The notes beneath the pieces are model-generated. The model did no database searches and had not been told where the DNA came from. It saw only the letters and a program-made list of their open reading frames with translations. The position numbers and the translations under genes were made by a program. Shown here one piece after another: positions 2,833-32,228 of a stretch of DNA of 43,858 nucleotides. This DNA comes from a virus: IMG/VR virus record IMGVR_UViG_3300028423_000204, positions 1 to 43,858 of that record; one strand, written 5' to 3'. The first letter of the stretch is position 1. Each line of letters opens with the position of its first letter.

Positions 2833-3079
2833 CTTTATTCATGAGAACGAACAAGGGTTGATTGATATGGAGGTGGATGCTTATGAAACATGGCGTGATG
2901 AATTAACTACTACGGATTTCCTAGACTTCACAAGTACAATAGCGTCCGGTGAGATGTATGAGCTTATTGAACTACTGGTTGATGACTTCCTTTCCAACCG
3001 CTCTATGGAGGAAGACCACCGCCAACTGTTACAGAGTATAGAAAATAAAATGTGGAAGGAACACAATGCTGAATCATGA
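2819..3079 (+). CDS. Small acidic hypothetical protein (86 aa)
   Basis: Begins MNRHDFIHENEQGLIDMEVD. It is acidic and predicted helical, with an LLVDDFLSNRSMEEDHRQLL segment. It overlaps both neighbours by 14 bases (2819-2832 and 3066-3079), as in the rest of this compressed cluster. Highly acidic small early proteins in phages are often DNA mimics or host-protein inhibitors, but there is no specific evidence here. Confidence 0.65.
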   Translation: MNRHDFIHENEQGLIDMEVDAYETWRDELTTTDFLDFTSTIASGEMYELIELLVDDFLSNRSMEEDHRQLLQSIENKMWKEHNAES

Positions 3080-3302
3080 CCCTGTTAGAAAGAATCAAGT
3101 TAAGGATGTATTGTCCAATATGAGGGCTGATAAACAATACCGCCTATTTGTTATGTCTTCTTTTATCTGTGATGATGTGCAATCCCCTGATGTAGCGTTG
3201 TCTTTGCTGTTTACGAATGACATATACGCTAGGGAATACTTACAAGATGCGTTAGAGGAATACATCTATGAGAACATTGAATTGTTTGTGGGTGAGGTAT
3301 GA
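3066..3302 (+). CDS. Hypothetical protein (78 aa)
   Basis: Begins MLNHDPVRKNQVKDVLSNM, with GGAAGGA upstream. Helical, with an acidic C-terminus (DALEEYIYENIELFVGEV). The composition resembles the preceding gene, and both could be small helical bundles. The stop overlaps the next ATG (ATGA). Function unknown. Confidence 0.65.
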   Translation: MLNHDPVRKNQVKDVLSNMRADKQYRLFVMSSFICDDVQSPDVALSLLFTNDIYAREYLQDALEEYIYENIELFVGEV

Positions 3303-3439
3303 CAGTTGAAGAAGTTATCAAGACAACACGTAAGTACAGTGAAGAATTGGATGTACTATCTGAACTAGACCCTGAGCTAGACGAATACAAAGCCGTTGAG
3401 CTATGGCACATGATGGATAAGGAGTTATTAAATGACTGA
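3299..3439 (+). CDS. Small acidic hypothetical protein (46 aa)
   Basis: ATG at 3299 overlaps the preceding TGA and is preceded by GAGGT. It encodes MTVEEVIKTTRKYSEELDVL..., acidic and helical. The end overlaps the MazG-like gene by 8 bases. Unknown function; supported by position, ribosome site and tight overlaps on both sides. Confidence 0.55.
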   Translation: MTVEEVIKTTRKYSEELDVLSELDPELDEYKAVELWHMMDKELLND

Positions 3440-3854
3440 GTACAACAACATAACGGAAGAACTACAACAGGACACAGACGTACAAGATAACCTGCATTGC
3501 GCTGTTGAGGATGTACAATTCTATTGCCATAACCTAGCCCTAGAAGCAGGGTGGTGGCATGACATCCACACAGGGGAGCTTAAAGAGAGGAACGTAGGGG
3601 AAGCTATTGCCCTTGTACATTCAGAGCTATCTGAGGCTCTTGAGGCGTACAGAAAAGACCTCATGGATGACCACCTTACACATCGTAAGGGACTAGAGGT
3701 TGAGCTAGCTGACGCTATTATCCGTATCCTTGACTTAGCTGGTGGACTAGGCTTAGATGTAGGTGGTGCATTGGTGGAGAAACTGCTGTACAACACAAAA
3801 CGTAAAGACCATAAGATACAGGAACGTATTAAGGATGGGGGAAAGGCTATATGA
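3432..3854 (+). CDS. MazG-like nucleotide pyrophosphohydrolase
   Basis: A 140-residue all-alpha NTP pyrophosphohydrolase. Residues around 60-100 show the metal-binding pattern of the MazG/dUTPase-like superfamily: HSELSEALEAYRKD, then VELADAIIRILDLAG, supplying the Glu/Asp ligands for Mg2+ on two helices. Family members hydrolyse (d)NTPs to monophosphates plus pyrophosphate. In phages they are thought to adjust nucleotide pools or (p)ppGpp. The next gene overlaps by ATGA, and ThyX, also concerned with nucleotides, lies further down the operon. Confidence 0.85.
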   Translation: MTEYNNITEELQQDTDVQDNLHCAVEDVQFYCHNLALEAGWWHDIHTGELKERNVGEAIALVHSELSEALEAYRKDLMDDHLTHRKGLEVELADAIIRILDLAGGLGLDVGGALVEKLLYNTKRKDHKIQERIKDGGKAI

Positions 3855-4345
3855 AACAGTTTGAGATGGGGAAGACTTATAAGTTTCTAGCCAACGATCA
3901 CTCTCTGCTCTCAGAAGGGGACATTTTTACACCTGAAAGAGTAGATGAATATGGGGATGCGATTATAGGCGACTGGTATGTTTTTTGTGAGCGATTAGGT
4001 TCAGGTCAAGTTATTGAAATCAAGGAGAACACAATGTTTACGAAAGATGATTTGAAAGATGGGATGCGTGTTGAGTTTGCCAATGGCGTAAGCCTTTATT
4101 GGTTTCGGTCTGACTTGTATGATGACTGTATTACCCTGAAATTTAAACATAATGATGGCTTTTTAGATAACTGCTTACGGAACATCAGTCACGGTAGGGC
4201 TTCTAAACTAGGGAACGTGGTGAAAGTAACCGACCGAGATGGAACTGCGGTGTTCGAGCGTGAAGAAACAACAGAGCTTACCATGCAAGAGGTGGCAGAC
4301 AAGCTAGGGGTCCCTGTGAGTCAACTGAAGATTAAGGGAGAGTGA
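3851..4345 (+). CDS. Two-domain hypothetical phage protein (164 aa)
   Basis: Begins MKQFEMGKTYKFLANDHS. Residues 1-60 form a small beta domain with a 'YKF...GDIF' pattern. A second unit starts at MFTKDDLKDGMRVEFANG (about residue 62), a repeat-type beta domain common in phage proteins. The C-terminus, LTMQEVADKLGVPVSQLKIK, is a short helix-turn-helix-like tail seen on many phage hypothetical proteins. An internal ATG with GGAGA at about 4034 could start a shorter product containing only the second part. Function unknown. Confidence 0.75.
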   Translation: MKQFEMGKTYKFLANDHSLLSEGDIFTPERVDEYGDAIIGDWYVFCERLGSGQVIEIKENTMFTKDDLKDGMRVEFANGVSLYWFRSDLYDDCITLKFKHNDGFLDNCLRNISHGRASKLGNVVKVTDRDGTAVFEREETTELTMQEVADKLGVPVSQLKIKGE

Positions 4346-4346
4346 T

Positions 4347-4565
4347 ATGAAAGACTTTTTTATAATGGCAGCGTTTGTATTGATTGTGTTAGGAGCGCGC
4401 TTAGTCCTGTTTAACTCCTACGTAGATTGGCAGTGCAGCAACTACCAAGAAATTACAGGCAATGAAACTAAGTACATAGACTTTGATGCTTGCTATGTAA
4501 AGCAAGGTGCTGATTGGGTAAGGTACGATGATACATTACGTAACAATGTAAGTAAGGGAGAGTAA
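4347..4565 (+). CDS. Single-pass membrane protein with two extracytoplasmic cysteines (72 aa)
   Basis: An N-terminal hydrophobic helix, FFIMAAFVLIVLGARLVLF (residues 4-22), is followed by a polar domain with two Cys (C30 and C49) and a DACYVKQGADWVRYDD motif. The expected topology is an inner-membrane anchor with the C-terminal domain outside. The Cys pair could form a disulfide. Short phage proteins with this layout are widespread and uncharacterised. The TAA overlaps the primase-helicase ATG. Confidence 0.7.
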   Translation: MKDFFIMAAFVLIVLGARLVLFNSYVDWQCSNYQEITGNETKYIDFDACYVKQGADWVRYDDTLRNNVSKGE

Positions 4566-6301
4566 TGGCAGGTACATGCGTAGAGAAAACGCAATGTCCT
4601 GTTTGTGAGAGCAACGGAGAGACAGTGCAAATCTTTGAGGAAGAAGATGGTGCTATCACAGGGTACTGCTTCCGTTGCTTCAAACCTTTTGATGAGGGAC
4701 AAACAAAGGACTTGCTGAACGGCAGAGAGCCAAGAAAAGCGAAGGCTTTACCCGAAGAATACATCAAGCAACAAATCCAAGAGATGTTGGAGTGTCCTAT
4801 TGTTGCATTGAAATCAAGGGGCTTGACTCTCGATACAACCAAACACTTTAAAGTTAGGACAGGGTTATCAGAGCAGGATGGGAAGACACCCCACACTTGG
4901 CACTTCCCGTTAACACGTAACGATGGCAAGGAACTGGCAGGGTTTCAGACCAGAATCATAGAGACGAAGCAAACCTACAACACAAGGGGTGTATCAGGCT
5001 GTGATTTAATGGGCTGGAAACAGGCATTGAAAGGGGGTAAAACCCTTTACATTACTGAGGGTCCTTTGGATGCTATGTCTGTACACCAAGTGTTGACAGA
5101 GAACAGTTTGAGCAGGGGTTACACACCTACATTCAATGTTGTATCCCTACCGCTTGGGGCTGGCTCAGCTAAGAAGTACATTAGTCAACACGCTAAGGAT
5201 ATATCCCGCTTGTACAAGGAAGTGCGGATTGTGTTCGACCAAGATGAAGCAGGGCAAAAGGCAGAGAAGGATGCCACCCTAGCCTTACAAGGGATAGACG
5301 CACAAGTGATGGTGTGTAAGCTTCCATACAAAGATGCTAACGATGCCCTTAAAGCAGGGGATGAAGAAGCTATCCTGAAGGCGTGCCTGTTTCAGGCAGA
5401 GCAAGCACCTAGCAGTGGGTTGATTCTTGATACAACTAACCCTGAGTATTGGGAGGAAGCAAGTAAACCACCAGAGATGGGTAAACCTTGGCCTTGGAAG
5501 GGGCTTACTGATTTAACAAGGGGTTACCGAGAGGGTGAGGTATGGTACTTCGGTGCGCCACCTAAGTTTGGTAAGTCAGACTTGCTTAATGAGTTAGCTG
5601 TTCACTTTCTGAAGGGTTCACCTACTACCTATATGTGTAAGATTGAGGAACACCCTCACAATACCTTACGTAGATTGGCAGGGAAGGTAGCTCATCATAA
5701 GTTCCATGACCCAAGAGCAGGGTGGGACGGAAAGGCTATGGAAACAGCCAAGCAATGGTTGCAAGGGCGTATCCTGATGCAAGACCGTACAACAAGAACA
5801 ACTTGGCACGATGTTAAACAGAGCATGAGGCAAGCAGCTTACGAGCATGGCGCTAAGGAGTTCTTTGTTGACCCGATGACTCCACTAGCTGTGGGTTTGG
5901 ATGCGTCAAAGACTAATGACTTATTCGAGCAGATAGCTTTTGAGTTCCAAGAACTTATGGCACAAGTGGAGGGAACAGGTTTTGTATTCACTCACTTAAA
6001 TCCTATCAAGGTGGGCAAGTCTCATAGCTTCGGAGGGCGTATTCAATCAGACCACTTCACAGGGAGTCGTGCTATGATTCGTTACGGCAACGGTATCATA
6101 GGGCTAGAAGGTAATAAGGATGACCAGCAAGGCGGTGGGGTACGTGCCACACGTTTACGTCAATTAGTGTTGTTAGAAGAACGAGAGTTCGGTTTGACAG
6201 GACGTATCTCTATGGACTACGATGAACAGACAGGCATGTACCGAGAAATATCTGATGATGAATACATCAGGATAAAAGAGGGGTTAGATGATGACGATTA
6301 A
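4565..6301 (+). CDS. DNA primase-helicase (T7 gp4-like)
   Basis: 578 residues. An N-terminal zinc ribbon (C11, C14, C35, C38) recognises the priming site. The TOPRIM primase domain shows TEGPLDA (164-170) and FDQDEAG (224-230). The C-terminal RecA-like DnaB-family helicase carries Walker A APPKFGKS (331-338) and Walker B-like FFVDPMTP (433-440), followed by FVFTHLN. The length matches T7 gp4 (566 aa). It unwinds DNA and makes RNA primers at the phage fork, working with the polymerase at 8613 and the SSB at 10918. The next gene starts inside its 3' end. Confidence 0.95.
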   Translation: MAGTCVEKTQCPVCESNGETVQIFEEEDGAITGYCFRCFKPFDEGQTKDLLNGREPRKAKALPEEYIKQQIQEMLECPIVALKSRGLTLDTTKHFKVRTGLSEQDGKTPHTWHFPLTRNDGKELAGFQTRIIETKQTYNTRGVSGCDLMGWKQALKGGKTLYITEGPLDAMSVHQVLTENSLSRGYTPTFNVVSLPLGAGSAKKYISQHAKDISRLYKEVRIVFDQDEAGQKAEKDATLALQGIDAQVMVCKLPYKDANDALKAGDEEAILKACLFQAEQAPSSGLILDTTNPEYWEEASKPPEMGKPWPWKGLTDLTRGYREGEVWYFGAPPKFGKSDLLNELAVHFLKGSPTTYMCKIEEHPHNTLRRLAGKVAHHKFHDPRAGWDGKAMETAKQWLQGRILMQDRTTRTTWHDVKQSMRQAAYEHGAKEFFVDPMTPLAVGLDASKTNDLFEQIAFEFQELMAQVEGTGFVFTHLNPIKVGKSHSFGGRIQSDHFTGSRAMIRYGNGIIGLEGNKDDQQGGGVRATRLRQLVLLEEREFGLTGRISMDYDEQTGMYREISDDEYIRIKEGLDDDD

Positions 6302-8612: not shown

Positions 8613-10553
8613 ATGAAGACACAACCAAAGTACAGGGTAGTCGGGGACTTAGAGGCAAATTCATTACTCGATGAAGCCACCGAGATACACTGTGGTGTAT
8701 TCAAGTGTATAGATACAGGTAGGGTGAAGAAGTTCAGACCTGAAGACGTACACAAGATACCTGAGTTCCTAGATAAATGCAGCATGCTTATCATGCATAA
8801 TGGTATCTCTTACGATAAGCCATTGATGAAGAAGCTCTTAGGGTACGAGTACAAGGGTAAGCTGGTTGATACATTACTTATGTCTAGGTTGTTACGCTCA
8901 GGACTAAGTAAACCTAAAGGTTGTCGGGCAGGACCGCACTCTGTTGAAGCATACGGCATACGTTATGGACATGCTAAACCAGAGAATGAGGACTGGTCTG
9001 TGTTCACTGAACATATGCTACACCGCTGTTCAGAGGATGTGGAGATACAGCATAAGATATACAAAGACCTTATGACTGATATGACTCCAGCTTGGTCTAA
9101 GCCTATGAAGCTGACACACCAGTTCTTTGAAATCATGGCACTGCAAGAACAGTACGGGTGGAAGTTCGATGTAGATAAGTGCAACCATTACATCGGTGTA
9201 CTAACCAGACGTATTGAACGTATTGATAATGCTATCACACCGTACCTTCCTATGATTATGAAGAAGGAGTACAGTGTACCGCTTAACAAACCGTTCAAGA
9301 AGTCAGGTGGGTACAGTCAGAGCTACGAGCATTGGTATGAGAAGGTGAGTGAACAAGGCTACCCGTATGCTAAGGACACAGTGGCAGGTCCATTCAGCAG
9401 GGTGATGTTCCGACGTACTAGCCTTGACTCAGGGCAAGAAGTAAAGGAGTTCTTACTTGCTTCAGGGTGGCAGCCTAAAGAGTACAACTTCAAGAAGGAC
9501 AGTAAGGGTAAGCCGTTAAAGGATGACAACGGCGGTCTTATCTTTACAAGTCCTATCCTGTCAGCAGATGATGGGTTTGAGGGTGTATCAGGTAGTGTTG
9601 GTAGGTTGTTAGCTTTACGTGTACAGATACGACACAGACGCAGCACCCTTGAGGGATACCTTAAGAACGTCCGTCCTGATGGACGTATCCCGTCTGTCAT
9701 TACAGGGATAGCAGCAACAAGACGCTTGACACATGGTAAGATTGTTAACGTCCCGAACACAGAGGCTTACTTCGGGAAGCAGATGCGTAGTCTGTTTATC
9801 TGTGAAGAAGACAAGACCTTGGTTAGTGTTGATGCTGCTAACTGTCAGGTACGGATGGAAGCTGCTAGGGCTAACAGCCCTGAGTACACTAAGATGCTGT
9901 TAGAGGGGAAGAAAGAAGACGGTACGGATAACCACAGTGTGTGTATGAAAGCTGTTAACTCTGTCTTACGGAACCGTGGTATCTCTGAGATAACTAGGGG
10001 CAAGGCTAAGGGCTTTAACTTTGCTAAGAAGTTCGGTGCTGGTGATGCCAAGCTAGGTAAGATGGCTAACGGTGCAGCAGAGCTAGGCACTAGCATTAAG
10101 GAGGCCATAGCTAGGGCGTTCCCTGCTCAGGATGCGTTAGTGAAACGCTTAACAAAGGAATGGAAGCGTAACGCTAAGGTGAGTAAGAACAAATGGGGTA
10201 AGCCACAGTACAGAGATGGATGGATTACAGGCTTAGATGGCGGTCCTATTAAGATAGAGTCCGAACACATGGTGTTAGTGTATGCTCTTCAGTCGGATGA
10301 AAGCATATGTTTACAATATGCCACTTGTTATTTACACAAATGGTTGTTGCAACGTGGCTACCAACACGGTAAGGAATTCGGCTGGGTCTGTAACTATCAC
10401 GACGAATTCACCTTGGAAGTGGATACAGATATTGCCGAGGAAGTCAAACAGCTAGGCGAGAAAGCGATACGTCACGCTGGGGAACACTTAGGTTTGTCTG
10501 TACCTCAACTTGGCGAAGGTGAAATCGGGAGGTCATGGAAGGAAGTCCATTGA
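8613..10553 (+). CDS. DNA polymerase I family (T7-type) with 3'-5' exonuclease
   Basis: 646 residues. Exonuclease motifs: DLEAN (12-16), HNGISYD (62-68) and CSEDVEI with D142. Polymerase motif A is VDAANCQVR with catalytic D407. Motif B is R462-x3-K466 leading to FGAGD, as in T7. Motif C is HDE (596-598). The motif A glutamate that usually follows the catalytic aspartate (E in DxSxxELR) is glutamine here. The order and spacing match T7 gp5 (704 aa). It is the phage replicase; it probably uses a processivity factor, but the thioredoxin-binding loop was not resolved. Confidence 0.95.
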   Translation: MKTQPKYRVVGDLEANSLLDEATEIHCGVFKCIDTGRVKKFRPEDVHKIPEFLDKCSMLIMHNGISYDKPLMKKLLGYEYKGKLVDTLLMSRLLRSGLSKPKGCRAGPHSVEAYGIRYGHAKPENEDWSVFTEHMLHRCSEDVEIQHKIYKDLMTDMTPAWSKPMKLTHQFFEIMALQEQYGWKFDVDKCNHYIGVLTRRIERIDNAITPYLPMIMKKEYSVPLNKPFKKSGGYSQSYEHWYEKVSEQGYPYAKDTVAGPFSRVMFRRTSLDSGQEVKEFLLASGWQPKEYNFKKDSKGKPLKDDNGGLIFTSPILSADDGFEGVSGSVGRLLALRVQIRHRRSTLEGYLKNVRPDGRIPSVITGIAATRRLTHGKIVNVPNTEAYFGKQMRSLFICEEDKTLVSVDAANCQVRMEAARANSPEYTKMLLEGKKEDGTDNHSVCMKAVNSVLRNRGISEITRGKAKGFNFAKKFGAGDAKLGKMANGAAELGTSIKEAIARAFPAQDALVKRLTKEWKRNAKVSKNKWGKPQYRDGWITGLDGGPIKIESEHMVLVYALQSDESICLQYATCYLHKWLLQRGYQHGKEFGWVCNYHDEFTLEVDTDIAEEVKQLGEKAIRHAGEHLGLSVPQLGEGEIGRSWKEVH

Positions 10554-30357: not shown

Positions 30358-31057
30358 TTATTCGATTAAGTCAGCGTCAGCGAGGATAACTACCAACGAA
30401 TCTAAACGCTGTACACCGAAGCCCATACGAGCAGTTAGTACAAACTCATCCTGCTGGAAGTCTTTGTTACGCTCTGATTCTACGCGAGGCATACGGCGCC
30501 ATGCTACCATCAATGGCTTGCACTGGTCATCAGCTACACACATAAAGATGTTAGCTACACCGTTTGATACCGCAGTAGTGCCATCAGAGAAGTTACCTTT
30601 AGGCAAACGGTTGGAAGTCATAATGCTGAAACCAGCAATGTTCATTACGAACTCATGGTCACGGGCAAAGCCACCTTGCAGGATGTCCTGCATAACAGGG
30701 TTAGCATCTACATTGTAGTTACCTTGGAACTTAGACCACAGACTTGCAGCCACAGTTGGGTCAACAACACCAACACGGCTACCATAAGGAACTTCTGCTT
30801 TATCCAACGCTAGTTTAGCAGCATTAAGGTCAGCCAGTTCTAATGTGTTATTAGTGCCAGTAGCAGTAATACGGTGTGCTTTACCGTTGATAGTGTTAGG
30901 GTCTGCATCAGTTTGAGCAGCATTCAATGTCTGGAATGAACGAGACTCAAAGTATTCTTGTACAGCACGACGACCTTCCATTGCACGTGCTTCTAACAAC
31001 GCTGGGATGTTAGTACCGTCTTCACGCAAGGTGTCTTTAATAGCATAGCCATCACCA
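30358..31057 (-). CDS. Major capsid protein, exon 2 (residues 84-316)
   Basis: The frame reads GDGYAIKDTLREDGTNIPAL... to ...VVILADADLIE. Joined to exon 1 (31978-32228) it gives 951 bases, exactly 317 codons including the stop, for a 316-residue capsid protein of the HK97 fold expected for T7-like phages. The segment after the junction (GDGYAIKD-LREDG) looks like the continuous sequence of related capsid proteins. A TTG codon at 31029 opens an apparent independent ORF, but no ribosome site supports it. Confidence 0.85.
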
Positions 31058-31977
31058 CGATAGACATTTCAGTCTACTAGACTATAGCATACGGGATTCA
31101 TCCCGCCCAATGTACTTAGTCGTTGCTAGTGTTTCGCAGAACTTCTTATTACTTTCAGTTGTACCGCCATGATTACGTGAGTGTCTGTTTTCTCCCACAT
31201 AGTCCCGTACTAACTGCATCTGTGTTTTCTTAATCCTAAGATGTTGTCCACAGAAATCGTAAAGTTCTTTTACCTTAGAAACGCTCATGTATCTTTCATA
31301 GTAAGCAGTGTTGCCCGTATAAAAAATACAACCACCAAATGCTTTTTTAATAAGCTGCAAACCAGCTTGTGCATCTACCGCTGAAACAATTATCAGCTTG
31401 GTGTTTAGAATACCTTTCTTAGATACTCTTGCGTAAAAACAACCATCTCCATCTATGTAACCTGCAAGCCATTTACGGCTAGGGTGGTTTTTAGTGGGCG
31501 TTTGTTTCTTTCTAAGGCTCTTAACAACCTTTCTTATTGCCTTCAACTCTTGCTTGTTAACTTCATCAGGCAGTGTTAAAACATACTCAGCAAGTTCGTC
31601 TTTAATTACAAGGTGTCCCTTTATAATTTCGATAAACCGTCTTGCTTTATTACCTGTTAAGTCGATTAGAGTAAGGTCTGCACCTTTTCTATATCTCAAG
31701 TTAACATCATAAGTTGTTGCCAATTCTCGGAGATTATAATCTCTGAAAGTTGATTGACCTATGTTGACTTTCGGATACAAACCGTATCTGTCGTCGTCAC
31801 GCTTCTGAACATGGATGCTAATACTGCCATCCGAATCTACAAAACCTGCAAAGTATTTTGCGTCAATCATTGCCACACGCTCCTGTGGTGTCTCTAGTTG
31901 TTTTGAAACTTCTATCTGGTTCGATATTACACGTCCCAGTTATTCAACATTGGTTTATACTTCACTAGTGTACGTTA
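31058..31977 (-). mobile_element. Group I intron in the major capsid gene (920 nt)
   Basis: On the - strand, P1 forms between exon end ACTTCAT and guide GTGAAGT, with the required U-G pair exactly at the 5' splice site (31978/31977). P10 forms between exon 2 start TGGTG and CACTA directly 5' of the guide. Near the 3' end ACTAGA pairs with TCTAGT (P7), TAGAC-loop-GTCTA forms P9, and the intron ends in G at 31058. Splicing gives ...ITDFI-GDGYAIKD... in frame. The homing endonuclease ORF sits between the P7 strands, so its 3' end overlaps the ribozyme core. Confidence 0.85.
31082..31870 (-). CDS. LAGLIDADG homing endonuclease (intron-encoded)
   Basis: 262 residues from ATG 31870 (AGGAG nine bases upstream; a GTG at 31876 in frame is too close to it). 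Two LAGLIDADG motifs are visible, FAGFVDSDGS near residue 7 and LAGYIDGDGC near residue 136, so it is a single-chain pseudodimeric enzyme that cleaves intronless capsid alleles and may also act as a maturase. The motif acidic residues (D in VDSDG and IDGDG) are intact, suggesting an active enzyme. Its stop codon lies 24 bases before the intron end. Confidence 0.92.
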   Translation of the reverse strand: MIDAKYFAGFVDSDGSISIHVQKRDDDRYGLYPKVNIGQSTFRDYNLRELATTYDVNLRYRKGADLTLIDLTGNKARRFIEIIKGHLVIKDELAEYVLTLPDEVNKQELKAIRKVVKSLRKKQTPTKNHPSRKWLAGYIDGDGCFYARVSKKGILNTKLIIVSAVDAQAGLQLIKKAFGGCIFYTGNTAYYERYMSVSKVKELYDFCGQHLRIKKTQMQLVRDYVGENRHSRNHGGTTESNKKFCETLATTKYIGRDESRML

Positions 31978-32228
31978 ATGAAGTCAGTAATCTGTAACTG
32001 AACTTTACCAGTTTCGATTGGGTTGTACACGATAGGAGTTTCATCACTCACTTCCTGTACAGTTGCTTCACCGATAGTAGGGATGGTTAGGGTCTCGCCT
32101 GAACCGAAGTCACCTACGTTGCGGTAAAACACATCAGGCATCAACGCATCGTGCATAGTACGCAGAATGAACTGCGATTGAATGTCTGCCTCTACAAAGC
32201 TAGAGTTAACTGTTTTGTTTAAACTCAT
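31978..32228 (-). CDS. Major capsid protein, exon 1 (residues 1-83 and part of 84)
   Basis: Starts MSLNKTVNSSFVEADIQSQF, with AAGGATTAAATA upstream. It ends after ATT's second base in ...GDFGSGETLTIP...QLQITDFI. Without splicing, translation runs four codons into the intron and stops (NVH-stop), giving an 87-residue fragment. The scaffold gene lies 10 bases upstream, as in other T7-like head operons. Confidence 0.85.

Follow-up and report, generated by a model that had tools for sequence, protein, structure and literature searches.

Judging from its sequence, the major capsid protein (MCP) gene of the phage analysed here is interrupted by a mobile group I intron, and joining of the two exons would give a full-length MCP mRNA, a reading to which we assign a probability of roughly 95%. 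The window, by which we mean the whole stretch of 43,858 nt that was analysed (IMG/VR record IMGVR_UViG_3300028423_000204), belongs to a Zobellviridae-like phage, and the element within its MCP gene is a group I intron with a LAGLIDADG enzyme, whose splicing we infer. The splice coordinates (Table 1) are exactly those proposed in a preliminary description of the window.

Exon 1 (32228-31978) ends with ...GACTTCAT and exon 2 starts with TGGTGATGG (31057). Joined, they make 951 nt in frame (251 + 700, stop included) and encode an MCP of 316 aa. Exon 1 by itself matches the major head protein family phrog_267 (E 2.4e-6), as does the part of exon 2 at 30358-31029 (E 1.6e-29). In tblastn searches the spliced MCP matched 116 phage records, each at less than 60% identity and with one MCP place per record, the top match being Salinivibrio phage CW02 (56%). 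The spliced product is 48-56% identical to uninterrupted relatives and aligns with them continuously across the junction, which bears out the earlier proposal that one capsid protein is encoded in two pieces. The six relatives examined are Zobellviridae with one uninterrupted gene each and no break at the window junction; the annotation is (putative) major capsid protein in four and hypothetical in two. The genes upstream of the window MCP encode a terminase and a head-tail adaptor, and another occupies the scaffold position.

At the 5' splice site the end of exon 1 pairs with the internal guide sequence in P1 (7/7 pairs, with the U.G pair at the splice site), and the start of exon 2 pairs with the bases just 5' of the guide in P10 (5/5). 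A P9 hairpin and a terminal G precede the 3' site. All of these elements had been read in the preliminary description, and all were found again. When pairs are counted at fixed offsets from conserved anchors, the core of the window is complete, with 7/7 pairs in P3, 4/4 in P4, 3/3 in P6 and 3/3 in P6a, and P7, which provides the guanosine-binding strands, is GACUA/UAGUC.

Table 1. Features of the interrupted MCP gene, its intron and the intron-borne endonuclease in the window.
Feature	Position	Strand	Remark
MCP exon 1	31978..32228	-	251 nt; 83 codons and two bases of codon 84
P1 5' strand, exon 1 (ACUUCAU)	31978..31984	-	
Group I intron	31058..31977	-	920 nt; first base 31977, terminal G 31058
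P10 intron strand (CACUA)	31966..31970	-	partner is exon 2 start, 31057-31053 (UGGUG)
Internal guide sequence, P1 3' strand (GUGAAGU)	31959..31965	-	U.G at splice site
P3 5' strand (CCAAUGU)	31947..31953	-	
P4 5' strand (CUGG)	31936..31939	-	
P4 3' strand (CCAG)	31916..31919	-	
P6 (UAG) and P6a (GUUUC) 5' strands	31905..31914	-	two unpaired A between; first 3 P6a pairs scored
Hairpin CCACA-GGAGCG-UGUGG with endonuclease Shine-Dalgarno	31873..31888	-	directly before start codon
Double-motif LAGLIDADG homing endonuclease	31082..31870	-	262 aa from ATG 31870
P6a (GAAAC) and P6 (CUA) 3' strands	31127..31135	-	one unpaired A between; first 3 P6a pairs scored
P7 5' strand (GACUA)	31117..31121	-	
P3 3' strand (ACAUUGG)	31107..31113	-	
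P8 hairpin (CGGGAU/AUCCCG)	31092..31105	-	read by eye, no shuffle test
P7 3' strand (UAGUC)	31080..31084	-	its UAG is the endonuclease stop
P9 hairpin (UAGAC/GUCUA)	31061..31076	-	read by eye, no shuffle test; present in computed fold
MCP exon 2	30358..31057	-	700 nt including stop

Both pieces of the MCP are open reading frames, and one could read the locus as two separate MCP proteins with a free-standing endonuclease gene between them. We consider this very improbable because exon 2 has no start at the junction, its ORF opening at a TTG 28 nt inside; because the junction splits a codon in 14 of the 21 introns analysed below; because a free-standing gene brings no covarying P3, P4 and P6; and because removal of the corresponding insert from Pseudomonas phage HHBS10_2 restores the sequence of a relative. 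Still less likely is that the product is restored by an intein or by translational bypassing and not by RNA splicing. LAGLIDADG enzymes do also reside in inteins, but the insert is not open in the MCP frame, which meets a stop 4 codons into the intron and 36 in-frame stops over the insert, while the 920 nt to be bypassed far exceed the gap of roughly 50 nt in T4 gene 60; the covariation of a group I core speaks against both. An example of a LAGLIDADG intein is that of ICP1 NrdA (PMC10448857).

The window enzyme has a distant relative (25% identity) in phage HHBS10_2, likewise inside an MCP gene, and the two introns share GCAACGACTAA...TATAGTC. Relatives were sought by scanning viral contigs for this signature, which contains no exon sequence; 48 stretches were found, 23 of which hold a window-like MCP (tblastn E<=0.01). 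After removal of L073, L078 and L082, which duplicate L064, L039 and L052, and of L044, whose junction was unclear, 21 introns were analysed: that of the window and 20 others, from HHBS10_2 and 19 contigs. These occupy nine sites in the MCP, FIES|EQY, EQ|YS, YR|NV, LH|IKT, TDF|IGDG, GDA|WYV, WY|VTDD, NNP|HYEG and EG|ERNKD, with the window and L070 sharing TDF|IGDG. Junctions were set jointly by reading frame, MCP continuity, the U at the exon end and the G at the intron end, several 5' splice sites by hand; these four criteria are not mutually independent, except in HHBS10_2, where an empty site decides.

Pairs were again counted at fixed offsets from conserved anchors and not from a MAFFT alignment of the joined core halves, since that alignment misplaced P1 and P9. 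Over the 21 introns P3 is paired at 140 of 147 positions with 21 different helix sequences (shuffled mean 78, maximum 101 in 2000). P6 (63/63, 9 helix sequences) and P6a (62/63, 12 helix sequences) were not equalled in 2000 shuffles, nor was P4 (83/84, 5 helix sequences), the 3' strand of which was found by a pattern that includes its own bases. The P1 count, 84/84, is biased upward because the guide was picked by pairing, and P1 has only 4 bp in 9 of the 21 introns. P10 is paired at 77 of 105 positions (shuffled mean 48.2, maximum 63, 0/5000 as high) and is weak in L077 (1/5) and L084 (2/5). With one intron per site the result is the same for P3 (60/63 vs 34.5 shuffled, 0/5000 as high), P6 and P6a (0/5000 each), and P4 reaches 36/36, a value equalled in 9 of 5000 draws. 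The constancy of the P7 strands among matches is not independent, as they belonged to the search pattern.

Two loci hold further elements. In L079 (3788-4069, minus strand) a single MCP gene carries two core signatures at a distance of 239 nt, so that two tandem introns are probable, the second lacking an enzyme. L083 carries, at the window's insertion site, a 44-nt insert in the MCP (9961-10004, minus strand) that has an in-frame stop and lacks a ribozyme core; a full intron follows some 20 nt later, at the next site. The insert can pair with the exon upstream in a P1-like manner and with the exon downstream over 7 bp, is unique among the viral contigs searched, and may be a relic, a mini-element or a bypass-like element.

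The preliminary description had proposed a covariance-model search for group I introns, and its outcome was divided. No group I match came from Rfam, including RF00028, whether the whole window, 1.2 kb or the 3' 101 bases were searched; the window matched no intron model of any kind, and the HHBS10_2 intron did not match RF00028. When one model for each core half was built from the 20 relatives, leaving the window out, both did match it at the right places: the 3'-half model at 31126-31059 (44.2 bits, E 2e-7) and the 5'-half model at 31955-31915 (31.6 bits, E 1.6e-4), each with a single match at E<=10 in 43,858 bases, the E-values being rough. The RF00028 miss is most likely due to the LAGLIDADG gene that fills loop L6, since with the core halves split by about 770 nt of ORF-bearing sequence the window is probably hidden from that model. 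L051, from the same P7/J6-7 signature search, did match RF00028 (105.7 bits). Taken together, core helices that pair and covary and models that find a window left out of their making uphold the assignment of the window core, on its sequence, to a group I intron. LAGLIDADG enzymes are known in some group II introns (PMC13190283), but we give a group II intron scarcely any credence here, since the core has the group I marks (U.G in P1, a terminal G and P3/P7), P3, P4 and P6 covary, and the window lacks an Rfam match of any intron kind.

An independent test of the junction comes from HHBS10_2 (L038, PQ287653.1), the MCP gene of which has an 885-nt insert after codon 13. Fourteen related records, from 12 phages of which two are present twice, have flanks 92-98% identical but no such insert, and the length difference is exactly 885 nt in 13 of the 14 and 882 in DMTU_1. 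Without its predicted intron HHBS10_2 is the same as IME180 over 40 bases, except for one exon 1 base 7 nt from the junction. A micrograph legend lists HHBS10_2 under the podovirus morphotype (PMC12141865), so that it forms particles despite its split MCP gene; we regard this as the strongest indirect sign that introns of the lineage splice. The main text of that paper, as available, mentions neither intron nor capsid (PMC12141865). The GenBank record (2860-4700) names no MCP, places a minus-strand hypothetical gene over much of exon 2, and annotates the LAGLIDADG enzyme as an HNH endonuclease. The lineage thus escapes the standard Rfam model and conceals capsid genes in annotation, as in this example. 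With HHBS10_2 as a cultured intron-plus phage and IME180, O4, PA11 and K4 as intron-minus counterparts, splicing, homing and competition are directly testable.

That the window holds a dead insertion or an assembly artefact, with a broken capsid gene, is equally hard to credit. The window is a single metagenome contig, and L083, of the same family, has its extra 44-nt insert with an in-frame stop; but nine sites and one isolated phage show the same arrangement, and the window has kept every scored core pair and both of its LAGLIDADG motifs.

The preliminary description also placed a LAGLIDADG enzyme inside the intron with its 3' end overlapping the core, and both points stand. The protein (264 aa if it starts at the alternative GTG 31876) matches PF00961 (E 3.9e-12), has two intact motifs, AGFVDSDG and AGYIDGDG, and its D12, D14, D140 and D142 are invariant in 23 alignment rows. 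Its AlphaFold model (pLDDT 92.5, pTM 0.88; residues 253-262 below 50) has as top Foldseek match an engineered meganuclease (E 9.3e-16, TMq 0.73), with I-MsoI- and I-OnuI-type chains close behind; identity is 13-19% among the 50 matches listed, and a sequence profile search agrees on LAGLIDADG meganucleases. The best PHROG match of this clear LAGLIDADG enzyme (31082-31876) is phrog_5046, which is described as HNH endonuclease. A scan of bacterial genomes gave 233 pattern matches and no relative of the enzyme. The reading frame overlaps the core by 45 nt, its stop TAG lying within the UAUAGUC of P7', and over the 21 introns the overlap is 11-48 nt. As the core-encoded residues end in the tail with pLDDT below 50, the core may have entered the frame at little cost to the protein.

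A ribosome that translates the enzyme would cross P7, P3' and P8 to the stop in P7' and so would disturb the ribozyme. Two features of the introns bear on this. The Shine-Dalgarno hairpin of the window has counterparts with other stems (GCACA...UGUGC in L070, CAUAC...GUAUG in L039). A perfect stem of at least 5 bp with an SD-like motif is present in 12 of the 21 introns (shuffled mean 1.06, maximum 6 in 1000 rounds). At 4 bp or more the count is 16 of 21, with 5 lacking one (shuffled mean 4.54, maximum 11), in a search window extended to the start codon, and 13 of 21 in a narrower one; the shuffles allowed any hairpin. We prefer the 5-bp count, because 163 of 558 windows inside the ORF also hold some 4-bp stem. 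Secondly, an in-frame MCP stop lies within 6 codons past the 5' splice site in 20 of the 21 introns (8.6 expected), L074 being the exception. Both early stops and hairpin-held ribosome-binding sites have been described in group I introns, and mutation of the I-TevI hairpin causes a splicing defect (PMC3073962). Going by the case of T4 td/I-TevI, it is most likely that the hairpin and the early stop keep ribosomes off the core, and these introns are good material for tests of competition between splicing and translation.

On this evidence we propose that P1, between exon end and guide, and P10, between the start of exon 2 and the bases next to the guide, would set both splice sites, that the P4-P6 and P3-P9 domains would form the ribozyme, a structure borne out by covariation, and that an external G would start two transesterifications which join the exons, as is typical of the family. 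The enzyme borne in L6 would most likely cut intron-less MCP genes near the insertion site, with repair copying the intron in. The sporadic presence of the introns and the same-site enzymes, which mostly cluster, bear on such homing indirectly.

In a tree of 28 enzymes, in which three long branches are unsure, the site labels need 12 changes (minimum 11; shuffled mean 21.2). YR|NV, LH|IKT and the window's site form one clade each, GDA|WYV and WY|VTDD need two changes each, and a clade of L064 (GDA|WYV) and L040 (WY|VTDD) lies beside two terminase enzymes. This pattern indicates that an enzyme as a rule keeps to its site, with occasional changes of site or gene. Because the list of the best 80 matches favours intact genes, the prevalence of introns in MCP genes was taken instead from a C-terminal motif scan, in which, among at least 120 MCP stretches, those listed comprise 104 intact, 2 interrupted and 14 undetermined ones (13 cut near a contig end, and L171, the N terminus of which is too divergent). 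Judged by these contigs, introns in MCP genes are sporadic. The nine sites lie in conserved codons, with an entropy of 0.81 bits in the four flanking residues vs 1.20 at random (0.6% of 5000 draws as low, with NNP|HYEG placed by hand); with wider flanks 1.3% and 3.2% of draws were as low.

Host genes across the lineage were assigned in two ways, by the core signature and by an enzyme profile, both blind to the host gene. Many of the contigs are related, so that the counts that follow, which are of matches listed, are not independent. The core signature occurred 49 times and, after removal of 8 that were too short and 4 copies, left 37 non-redundant downstream exons of at least 60 aa, 23 of which matched phrog_267 and 7 phrog_1357 (both major head protein) and 2 terminase. 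Among the rest, L051 lies in a gene without assigned function and L068 had no match; L059, with replication initiation-type matches, L085 and the short L043 and L076 look like chance pattern matches. A scan with the enzyme profile gave 155 relatives, the best 80 of which yielded 58 non-redundant downstream exons after 17 copies and 5 short or missing ones were dropped. Among these, 46 matched phrog_267 and 8 phrog_3437, two counts that may overlap, while 4 matched the terminase family phrog_979, 1 the terminase family phrog_38 and 1 a virion structural protein. Pseudoalteromonas phage J2-1 (L037, MF370964.1, 1253-3205) carries an intron of this kind in its terminase gene; in the annotation the terminase begins past the intron and the enzyme is absent.

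The 3' core model (R1) found 32 of these best 80 loci at E<=0.05. Inspection by eye of 34 of the remaining 48 showed in most of them a 5' core (AATAAC with CGGG/CCCG or CTGG/CCAG P4) and a variant P7'. When 20 of the R1-negative loci were compared with RF00028, 19 had no match and one, L428, matched downstream of the enzyme gene (87.1 bits). At some loci found by the enzyme search R1 gave weak minus-strand matches as well.

A control scan used the classical P7 signature CAACGACTA...AAGATATAGTC, which is carried by the control set (loci L285-L403) and also by L051, and gave at least 124 occurrences, 76 of them usable, 37 too short and 11 copies. Among the 76 control exons listed, 8 matched phrog_1328, 8 phrog_267 and 2 phrog_9953, all major head proteins, with counts that may overlap; the control introns are thus often in MCP genes, and other hosts among the matches listed are HNH endonucleases, RNA polymerase, DNA polymerase and terminase. 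That the MCP is merely a common host of any phage group I intron is partly true, but the control share is lower than that of the lineage. On these profile matches, phage group I introns in general appear often to reside in MCP genes, and those of this lineage more often still; the lineage appears to sit almost only in phage head genes (MCP, some terminase) and in several MCP families. We see about an even chance for a wider reading, that the lineage is specialised in phage head genes, having entered MCP genes of several families and terminase genes, with at least nine sites in one MCP family and movement between sites and genes, and that, by cutting conserved codons in the MCP gene of a co-infecting phage that lacks the intron, it may serve as a capsid-directed weapon in phage competition; the competition part is drawn by analogy with PhiPA3 gp210.

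The LAGLIDADG fold is shared with the meganucleases I-MsoI, I-OnuI and I-CreI, which come from organelle introns of eukaryotes; chains of these types, natural or engineered, head both the profile and the Foldseek results. In T4 td the enzyme, I-TevI, is of the GIY-YIG type and the host gene encodes thymidylate synthase, whereas the window has a LAGLIDADG enzyme and an MCP host. The two are alike in a P6-loop ORF that enters the core and in a hairpin-held ribosome-binding site, but the overlap in td reaches only P6a and P7, and that of the window runs through P3' and P8 to P7' (PMC3073962). PhiPA3 gp210, too, is an endonuclease borne by a phage group I intron that interrupts a conserved essential gene, and it cuts an intron-less competitor; it differs in being an HNH enzyme with an RNA polymerase host gene, and cutting by the window enzyme is inferred (PMC11620839). 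In a survey of Bastillevirinae most introns were in DNA polymerase genes, the Rfam and GISSD models were thought possibly to miss phage introns, and the word capsid is absent from the available part of the text (PMC11878797). Among OM43 phages related to Zobellviridae, an intron is suspected in a split DNA polymerase (PMC10580990). In the open-licence literature, titles and the starts of abstracts held no treatment of MCP introns in Zobellviridae or of a capsid-specialised intron lineage.

Also among the closest known systems is that of mycobacteriophage LittleE, in which an intron, most likely group I, with a LAGLIDADG-like gene lies in the MCP gene, and for which both RT-PCR and the N-terminal sequence of the capsid protein demonstrated splicing (PMC3706429); the introduction of the same paper names the capsid gene of phage Tuc2009 in its account of introns (PMC3706429). 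The LittleE intron differs from that of the window in its length of about 820 nt, its siphovirus host and an enzyme gene on the opposite strand, and its type is called unclear in the paper (PMC3706429), whereas the enzyme gene of the window lies on the sense strand and runs into the core. MCP introns were thus already known from LittleE and the window element itself is ordinary, and it is the preference of its lineage for head genes that looks new.
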